NCBI RefSeq assembly: GCF_025950085.1
Contig: NZ_JAPDDS010000015.1
Location: forward strand, 62,001 to 126,000
Length of the DNA: 64,000 nucleotides
Reading direction: 5' to 3'
DNA from: Luteolibacter flavescens
Lineage (GTDB): Bacteria; Verrucomicrobiota; Verrucomicrobiia; Verrucomicrobiales; Akkermansiaceae
The notes beneath the pieces were generated by a model. It was not told the origin of the DNA and searched no databases. It saw nothing but the letters and a program-made list of their open reading frames with translations. Shown here in pieces: positions 35,241-37,034 of this stretch; position 1 is the stretch's first letter, and the number at the start of each line of letters is the position of its first letter. The position numbers were made by a program, and so were the translations under genes.

Positions 35241-35684
35241 TCACGGGACGCGGAAGTACATTCTCTCCTCTGCGGGGTAGTGCGGATCCGCGACCAGCCT
35301 GCCACTTTGCATTCCTTCCACGTCGATCAGCTTGTTATTGAAGGGGCTGAAGACGAATCCCGGCTTGCCCGGTACCGGCCTCGCGGTCGGGACGGGCGGC
35401 TTGGGGGCTGGCTTGGGATTCGGCTGAGGCTGAGGCTGGGGTTCCGGCTCGGGGCGCGGATTCGGACCGGGAATGGGCTCGGGATTCGGCTTAGGAAGCT
35501 CGTCAGGGTTTCTGGATGGTGGCGGCCTCCTCGTGGGCGGTTCGGCGTGGCCTCCGCCATTGCGTCCCGGATTGCCCATCACGGCACCGGGACCCTTGAA
35601 GATGTCGGCGAGCCACGCGCAGCTCGTGAACTGCGACGCCACCAGCAACACACCCACCACCCGGAAAAGCAGCACCAACTTCAT
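35241..35684 (-). CDS. Proline-rich lipoprotein
   Basis: 147 residues. The signal peptide MKLVLLFRVVGVLLVASQFTSC ends in a lipobox-like FTSC, so the Cys is probably lipidated. Next is a long Pro/Glu/Asn-rich spacer (about 50-100), built of short repeats such as PNPEP and PQPQP that should be extended like a stalk, then a short globular end (GKPGFVFSPFNNKLIDVEG, YPAEERMYFRVP). Stalks of this type span the peptidoglycan. Minus strand; the start is bounded by an unusual set of CAGCAT half-sites. Confidence 0.8.
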   Translation of the reverse strand: MKLVLLFRVVGVLLVASQFTSCAWLADIFKGPGAVMGNPGRNGGGHAEPPTRRPPPSRNPDELPKPNPEPIPGPNPRPEPEPQPQPQPNPKPAPKPPVPTARPVPGKPGFVFSPFNNKLIDVEGMQSGRLVADPHYPAEERMYFRVP

Positions 35685-35745
35685 GCTAGAAAAACAGCAT
35701 AAAGCCGGATCACCTGCAAGCGGATTAATGCTGTTTTAGCAGCAT
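35683..35745. promoter_or_regulatory. Cluster of CAGCAT/ATGCTG half-sites before the lipoprotein gene
   Basis: AAAACAGCAT (35691-35700) and ATGCTGTTTT (35728-35737) form a 10-bp perfect inverted repeat; ATGCTG-N6-CAGCAT (35728-35745) forms a second one sharing an arm; ATGCT at 35683 repeats the half-site. They sit between the ACP-fusion stop and the lipoprotein start. Could be an operator or a terminator. Confidence 0.5.
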
Positions 35746-35746
35746 T

Positions 35747-36718
35747 TCACTCCGCTTCCACGCGTGGCTTCTCCAGCCAGATAATCAGATCGCCCACGGT
35801 GCGGAGATTCGCGGCCTCCTCGTCAGGGATGGGGAGGTCGAATTCCTCTTCCACCGCCATCACGAGTTCCACCGTATCGAGGCTGTCGGCTCCGAGGTCT
35901 TCCACGAAGCGCGATTCCGGCTTCACGGTCTCCGGATTGAGGCCGAGCTGCTCGATGACGATGGCCACCACGCGCTCCTGCACCGTGGCATTCGCTGGAA
36001 AGCGGGGTGCCTTGGGAGCCGGGGGGCCGTCGTCGGAAGTGAAGCTCTCGATGACCTCGCGGAAAACCGGCTCGGCCGTGCTTTCCTTCGAAAACAGCGT
36101 CCACGTGAGCACTTGATAATACGCAGTGTCCGTCTCGATCGAGGCGACGTGATAGACCACGCGAATCTTTTCCACCGTGCCGGCCATCCGGCGGTGGATC
36201 GCGGGGTAGGAGCCCACGGGGCGCATCTCCGGCTCGGAGGATTTCACATCGGGCATGCTTTCCAGCATCTGCCCGATGACCAACTCGTCGAACTCCGCGA
36301 GATCGAAGAGCAAGTCGGCCTTGGGACTCTCGAGCACCACCACGTACTGCTCCTGGAGAGCATTCCCCGCCTTGATCTCCGCATCTTCATGGAGTTCCGG
36401 GAGATCGCGCCATGAAGACGGGACCTCCAGGCGGAATCGTCCGTCCTTTGACGCGACCGTCTTCCTCTTGTCCTTCTGGGTCTTCGCGATCTTCGCGATG
36501 GCATTCGCCGTCACCCCGATGAGCCCCACGACCCCGGCCATGGCCACCACGCCGGAGACGATGGTGCCGATGACCCAGCCCTTGTTCCTCCGGCTCATGG
36601 ACTTGATCAGGCCGATGATGAAGAAGATACCGCCGCCCACGATCGAGAGCCCTATCAGGACATAGACGAGGATGCGGCCAAAGGCTTGGCCTGCTTCATA
36701 GGCAGAGGTTGGCTCCAT
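35747..36718 (-). CDS. Membrane-anchored protein with C-terminal acyl carrier protein domain
   Basis: 323 residues from the ATG at 36718 ([14 protein letters not shown]; the frame extends to 36766). Two membrane helices at about 14-37 and 46-69, with the basic loop SMSRRNKG between them. Then a soluble domain (about 90-225) of beta-rich character ([47 protein letters not shown]) resembling DcrB/PsbP-type domains. From about 243 to 318 there is a full acyl carrier protein: [37 protein letters not shown] with the phosphopantetheine Ser279, and [16 protein letters not shown]. An ACP fused to a membrane protein is unusual. No fatty acid or polyketide genes are near. Positive-inside analysis is ambiguous about the ACP side. 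Confidence 0.88.
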
Positions 36719-36827
36719 GGCCTGCAATCGAAAGCGGATGCAGGTATCCCGGACAAGCCAATTCATGAGCCGGTCATGGCCAACTCACGGCCCAATCCAT
36801 GGGCCGGACTTGCCCCCGGAAGCCCGG

Positions 36828-37034
36828 ATGCCCAGCCTCCGCCGCGTGGATCTCTCGAACTATCTCCGCATGGACCCCCACCTGCTGCTAGGCCTGCTCA
36901 ATACCGAGCTGAGAAACAACTGCGACTCGCTGGAGGACCTGCTGAAAACCCACGGGCTGGATGAAAAGAAGCTGACCGACAAGATGACGAAGGCCGGCTA
37001 CGACTACATGGCCGCCCAGAATCAATTCCGCTGA
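36828..37034 (+). CDS. DUF4250-type small protein
   Basis: 68 residues from the ATG at 36828, or 54 from the ATG at 36870. The core MDPHLLLGLLNTELRNNCDS, then LEDLLKTHGLDEKKLTDKM, and AGYDYMAAQNQF match the short DUF4250 family, which has DPxxLLxxxN-KLRD at the start and NQF at the end. Cytosolic, helical. Function unknown. It lies divergent from the ACP-fusion gene and five bases from the convergent DUF1992 stop. Confidence 0.78.
   Translation: MPSLRRVDLSNYLRMDPHLLLGLLNTELRNNCDSLEDLLKTHGLDEKKLTDKMTKAGYDYMAAQNQFR

Follow-up and report, generated by a model that had tools for sequence, protein, structure and literature searches.

Within the 64,000 nucleotides of Luteolibacter flavescens DNA analysed here (the window), one gene encodes a membrane-anchored protein in which a two-helix hairpin and a domain of the PsbP/DcrB fold are fused to a complete acyl carrier protein (ACP). 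At the level of sequence, the architecture, its conservation in relatives, the loss of the cofactor serine from most of the fusions and the constraint that nevertheless acts on the domain are established. The reading that we prefer, and to which we give about an even chance, is that an exported ACP fold has been reused as an acidic docking module that works without the phosphopantetheine cofactor.

The fusion protein and its locus

The features of the locus are collected in Table 1. The reading frame of the fusion gene contains no internal stops. Its likely start is position 36718 and not the beginning of a longer frame at 36766, because the N-terminus MEPTSAYE is kept in relatives (as MEPSSAYE in G009, G006 and G011). 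In an AlphaFold2 model built on 22 aligned sequences (mean pLDDT 90.2, pTM 0.63), helices at residues 4-43 and 46-81 are followed by the beta domain and by the ACP helices within residues 246-322; the positively charged loop KSMSRRNKG joins the two hairpin helices. The two membrane helices, the beta-rich domain and the complete ACP with Ser279 of the original prediction are thus borne out by Pfam, NCBIfam and the model.

Table 1. Features of the fusion gene and its flanking genes (window coordinates).
Feature	Position	Strand	Remarks or basis
Whole fusion gene	35747..36718	-	323 aa: two TM helices, PsbP/DcrB-fold domain, ACP
Two-helix membrane hairpin, residues 4-81 (predicted)	36476..36709	-	AlphaFold2 model; loop charges
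PsbP/DcrB/LpqN-fold domain, residues 83-229	36032..36472	-	Model and structure comparison
Pro/Ala-rich linker, residues 230-243	35990..36031	-	Sequence
ACP domain, residues 244-320	35759..35989	-	PF00550; TIGR00517; 9ka6
Ser279 codon AGC, expected phosphopantetheine site	35882..35884	-	Translation; homologue alignment
DUF4250 gene, divergent from the fusion gene	36717-37034	+	Pfam; domain at 36864..37028
Proline-rich probable lipoprotein, downstream of the fusion	35241..35684	-	Locus comparison

The DcrB/PsbP-like character proposed for the middle domain held by fold and not by profile. A Pfam scan of residues 1-231 gave nothing above cutoff, while comparison of residues 83-229 with solved structures matched them to PsbP (2xb3; Z 16.7, rmsd 2.6, 146 residues aligned), the secreted protein MTC28 (4pws; Z 15.2), LpqN (6e5d; Z 14.6, rmsd 2.6, 138 residues aligned) and EagT6 (6xrf; Z 13.9). 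Several relatives with the PsbP/DcrB fold are envelope or lumen proteins. The fold itself leaves the side of the membrane undecided, because EagT6, which we take to be a cytoplasmic chaperone, has it as well.

A match of the PP-binding profile to residues 243-318 had been set beforehand as the test of the ACP assignment, and PF00550 indeed matched residues 248-314 (E 3.6e-14, 53.2 bits, cutoff 20.8). The NCBIfam acyl carrier protein model TIGR00517 matched residues 244-316 with 98 bits (cutoff 70.45), and residues 242-319 could be superimposed on the ACP 9ka6 with Z 15.2 and rmsd 0.7 over 76 aligned residues. In the window protein, Ser279 is present and the DSLD motif is perfect. Its ACP shares 53% identity with the AcpP of its own genome and 56-60% with E. 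coli ACP chains; to judge by this similarity, it probably derives from the housekeeping AcpP type. That AcpP is a separate, free protein encoded on another contig (G000:C24), and free AcpP with 88-100% identity to it is kept in all 15 genomes examined, which indicates that the fused ACP is an addition and not the housekeeping carrier.

The statement that no fatty acid genes are adjacent also stood. Pfam identified DUF4250, DJC28_CD, tRNA pseudouridine synthase, M48 peptidase, HSP70 and CxxCxxCC families among nine neighbours; the remaining three gave one low-complexity match below cutoff and two blanks, and no fatty acid synthesis family was present among the nine that would have pointed to a fatty acid, polyketide or acyltransferase context. 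In six of the ten fusion genomes a DUF4250 gene is found no more than 1.8 kb from the fusion, and the two are linked in both genera that carry the fusion (g1, the window's genus, and g13). In G003, the unfused hairpin-PsbP gene likewise occupies this neighbourhood, at a distance of about 5 kb from the DUF4250 gene. No paper on DUF4250 was found in the literature searched. A relative of the downstream lipoprotein is encoded no more than about 1 kb from the fusion in all five g1 fusion genomes and was not found at the five g13 loci, and a 159-aa protein is found near the fusion in the window's genus only. A conserved operon partner was not found across the fusion loci. The gap between the fusion and lipoprotein genes (35685-35746) contains an inverted repeat, AAAACAGCAT ... 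ATGCTGTTTT; the longer motif TGCTGTTTTTCTAGC occurs in one of seven loci scanned, the window's own.

Distribution, serine loss and constraint

When a single N-terminal sequence was used as query no relative was found; with an alignment as query, relatives were detected. Of the genomes searched, 8 of 18 in the genus, 17 of 260 in the family and 35 of 386 in a sample of the order contain the N-terminal part (hairpin and PsbP fold); 15 of the last 35 are family members. Whether the fusion is conserved was to be checked in related genomes, and it is: ten of the 17 family genomes with the N-terminal part have it, five in each of the two genera, while six lack the ACP and one (G008) has a truncated gene. 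Outside the family, none of 17 genomes read from 20 positives has an ACP on the hairpin-PsbP protein, a count that leaves out G337, G369 and G373 (frames of 162-212 aa) and second matches in G370 and G377. A scan of 84,980 genomes, one per species, with one conserved motif yielded 40 loci, seven of them with an ACP; all seven belong to this group and include Luteolibacter pohnpeiensis KCTC 22041.

In a tree of the N-terminal part, from which the truncated G008 was omitted, the unfused proteins of G015 and G003 are nested in the fused group (81/95, 12 rows, long branches), and the fused rows alone as a clade were rejected (AU p 0.021). These sequences would be most simply explained if the ACP had been gained once and lost once, the loss falling in the ancestor that G003 and G015 share. 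A tree of the ACP itself was set aside for claims of origin; the domain is too short to resolve and long branches meet.

In the genus, lipoprotein-type ACPs were seen in two genomes, G015 and G003, whose hairpin-PsbP protein lacks an ACP. There the separate ACP follows a lipoprotein-like signal and a Pro/Ala-rich linker, and its serine is kept (G015) or replaced by Asp (G003). Near-full-length matches to the G015 protein were found in at least two of 288 order genomes, namely these two, among the matches listed; matches in G290 and G202 reach into the linker part and proved on reading to be free ACPs. In the genus, an anchored ACP accompanies the intact hairpin-PsbP protein in seven of seven genomes and was seen in none of the other 11, with the provisos that these genomes are related and not independent cases, that for G004, G005, G007, G008 and G012 the best ACP match was counted unread as a free AcpP, and that G005 is 61% complete.

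Further anchored ACPs occur elsewhere in the order. Two genomes of another family, G330 and G051, encode ACPs behind lipoprotein-like signals, that of G330 with a lipobox imperfect relative to the consensus. In both (L224, G330:C317; L232, G051:C61) Asp takes the place of the serine, so that DDLD replaces DSLD, and both are extended at the C-terminus by a conserved stretch of about 100 aa with no Pfam match. Of 286 class genomes, one matched this type (f4) over its full length: G051, which had supplied one of the source sequences; the other source, G330, lies outside that sample, and the other 27 matching genomes match in the ACP part only and were left unread. In G291, a 599-aa frame (L190, G291:C268:1500-7000, frame 1) joins DUF4062, one helix and Amidase_2 to an ACP at the C-terminus in which DSLD is retained. 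The ACP of this protein follows a peptidoglycan amidase domain that is probably extracytoplasmic. DUF4062 is often met in conflict systems.

Two other arrangements came to light. Four frames of genus g23 (L228, L229, L230 and L231 in G336, G334, G330 and G339) have the second half of an ACP near their start, MGLDSVELVMAFEE or MGLDAVELVLAFEE, and carry the first half at their end (..QLGL...DLGLD or a close variant, followed by a stop). Judged from these sequences, the ACP looks circularly permuted at the cofactor motif, with more than 100 aa between the halves. A 415-aa frame of G011 (L153, G011:C148) has an ACP followed by another domain, by its look presumably a FabA/FabZ-type dehydratase.

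Loss of the serine in homologues had been named beforehand as a refutation of the original prediction. It has occurred in six of the ten fusions, the serine being replaced by Asp in G171, G168 and G172, by Gly in G010, by Ala in G139 and by Glu in G140; it is present in four (the window's G000, G009, G006 and, as TDSLD, G011). Since G168, G171 and G172 are closely related, the six losses represent fewer events, two by hand count on the N-terminal-part tree if the serine is ancestral. Among all 15 anchored ACPs, six have the serine (four fusions, one lipoprotein-type protein of the four and the amidase fusion), and 14 have an acid at both +5 and +11 in helix II. The PF00550 cutoff is passed by ten of the 11 anchored ACP proteins scanned, including seven of the eight without serine; G010 just misses it (20.5 against 20.8 bits). 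The Ser-to-Ala member from Luteolibacter pohnpeiensis KCTC 22041 (L090) yields an ACP model with block confidence 88-96, from an alignment that includes Ser-bearing ACPs, and the model matches ACPs with Z 13.0-14.7, where about 13 is near noise for helical bundles.

Constraint was assessed by dN/dS, in pairwise estimates that carry no error bars. The Asp-bearing pair G171/G168 gave 0.157 for the ACP, 0.145 for the PsbP domain, 0.453 for the linker and 0.976 for the membrane hairpin; for G171/G172 (partial, 45 ACP codons) the values were 0.245 for the ACP and 0.318 for the linker. In the Ser-keeping pairs the ACP value was 0.130 for G000/G009, where none could be computed for the linker, and 0.233 for G006/G011, whose linker gave 0.273. 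For the two lipoprotein-type ACPs the value was 0.317. Constraint shows less clearly in this last pair, in G006/G011 and in G171/G172 than in G171/G168.

Membrane side and probable role

The original prediction described a positive loop between the helices and a basic patch after the second, and left the side of the ACP uncertain. Both charge features were found again, and the side is most likely periplasmic. Every one of the 32 rows, of which 31 are distinct and one is truncated, has a net positive inter-helix loop (mean +3.2), although this sign is partly built in because the loop was located by a Trp preceded by a net charge of at least +2, a condition that no row failed. The N-terminus is net zero or negative in all 32 rows (31 distinct; mean -1.3); the rows for G015 and G179 in this charge table begin at non-start codons. 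After helix 2 the charge averages +0.7 over all rows and ranges from 0 to +5 in the ten fusions, with +5 in the window protein, so that the positive-inside argument is weaker for the fusions than for the other rows. By the positive-inside rule the hairpin is most likely N-out and C-out, less clearly so in the fusions. Among distant relatives of the middle domain, a lipoprotein-like signal opens 11 of 12 Bacteroidetes loci, and in eight of eight actinobacterial loci the domain follows a basic stretch and a single helix (both judged by eye). It is the loop and N-terminal charges together with these lipoprotein-like or N-in relatives that make a periplasmic ACP most likely; the charge after helix 2 lends it no support. 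We infer that all 15 anchored ACPs lie outside the cytoplasm.

The hairpin would then hold the protein in the cytoplasmic membrane with both ends outside, as the charge pattern and the relatives suggest, which would put the PsbP/DcrB-fold domain and the C-terminal ACP in the periplasm. There the ACP may have been retained as an acidic helical docking module in which the acids of helix II are kept and the cofactor serine is dispensable; most likely unmodified, it could recruit or stabilise an envelope protein beside the PsbP-like domain. As the serine is lost in many relatives, the domain has probably been reused for protein docking and not for fatty acid carriage. The split in G003 and G015 into an ACP-less hairpin-PsbP protein and a lipoprotein-like ACP suggests that the two parts work jointly on the outer side of the membrane. 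The main reservation concerns Ser279, which the window protein itself retains, so that a carrier role is conceivable in this species.

Presentation of an acyl group at the membrane, as first suggested, is unsupported for the family, given the missing serines and a topology that points outside. We know of no CoA or holo-ACP synthase outside the cytoplasm. A tethered true ACP facing the cytoplasm, which would transfer a thioester or acyl group to a lipid or protein and of which the Ser-less homologues would be secondary losses, is favoured by the perfect DSLD motif, the identities to AcpP and E. coli ACP, the strong positive charge after helix 2 and the shared fold of EagT6, a cytoplasmic chaperone. 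We nevertheless consider it unlikely, since loop, N-terminus and relatives favour the outside, the serine is gone from six of ten fusions and yet the fold is predicted and the tested pair constrained, and the nine neighbours include no acyltransferase or fatty acid synthesis family. Less probable still would be a functionless, dispensable C-terminal appendage in slow decay. The long branches and low Pfam scores of the G010 and G140 ACPs, the missing ACP of G003 and G015 and the truncated gene of G008 would fit such decay; the ACP dN/dS values of the four fusion pairs, of which two lack the serine, and of the lipoprotein-type pair argue against it, as do the separate lipoprotein-type ACPs of G003 and G015. 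Export of an ACP loaded with phosphopantetheine beforehand in the Ser-keepers, to display a periplasmic thiol or acyl group, would suit the six proteins that have the serine and is the most doubtful reading, for their relatives do without it and Sec export of an already folded, modified protein is hard to square with known mechanisms.

Relation to known systems

ACPs are usually viewed as cytosolic cofactor carriers. The preferred docking reading can be extended, more tentatively and at somewhat less than an even chance, to the proposal that the Verrucomicrobiales have exported ACP folds several times, on the hairpin-PsbP protein, as lipoproteins and on a membrane-bound amidase, as cofactor-free extracytoplasmic docking modules. 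If this is true, they would be an extracytoplasmic bacterial counterpart of the cofactor-free ACP of Plasmodium, with the Ser-keepers as members in transition, and the docking surface of an ACP could be selected by itself, outside the membrane, after loss of the cofactor serine. A PP-binding match in Pfam would be no proof of carrier function, as the Ser-less proteins above the PF00550 cutoff illustrate. The fusion architecture had been called unfamiliar, and the matches listed from the openly licensed PMC literature include no description of it and no report of a bacterial ACP that is exported or anchored in a membrane.

With ACPs of the AcpP type (PF00550, TIGR00517) the window protein has in common the sequence of the whole domain, the fold, the acidic helix II and DSLD. 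It differs in that its ACP forms the C-terminal part of a membrane protein and probably lies outside the cytoplasm, that most of the fusions lack the serine and that the genome has a free AcpP besides. With PsbP, CyanoP, DcrB, LpqN and Mog1-like proteins it shares the fold of residues 83-229, at a sequence identity of 10-16% to the solved PsbP-fold chains compared; a two-helix anchor replaces the signal peptide, and an ACP is fused.

The mitochondrial ACP of Plasmodium is a close precedent. According to the report on it (PMC8547962), this ACP is essential without the serine and binds Isd11, whose LYR motif is reportedly contacted by the acids at +5 and +11; with that study's own query, such divergent ACPs were found only in Apicomplexa and one chromerid. 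The Plasmodium protein binds a partner without phosphopantetheine, and the acids at +5 and +11 are kept there as in the proteins described here. The Plasmodium ACP, however, is mitochondrial, free and eukaryotic, whereas the fusion ACP is bacterial, membrane-anchored and probably periplasmic, and some of its members have the serine.
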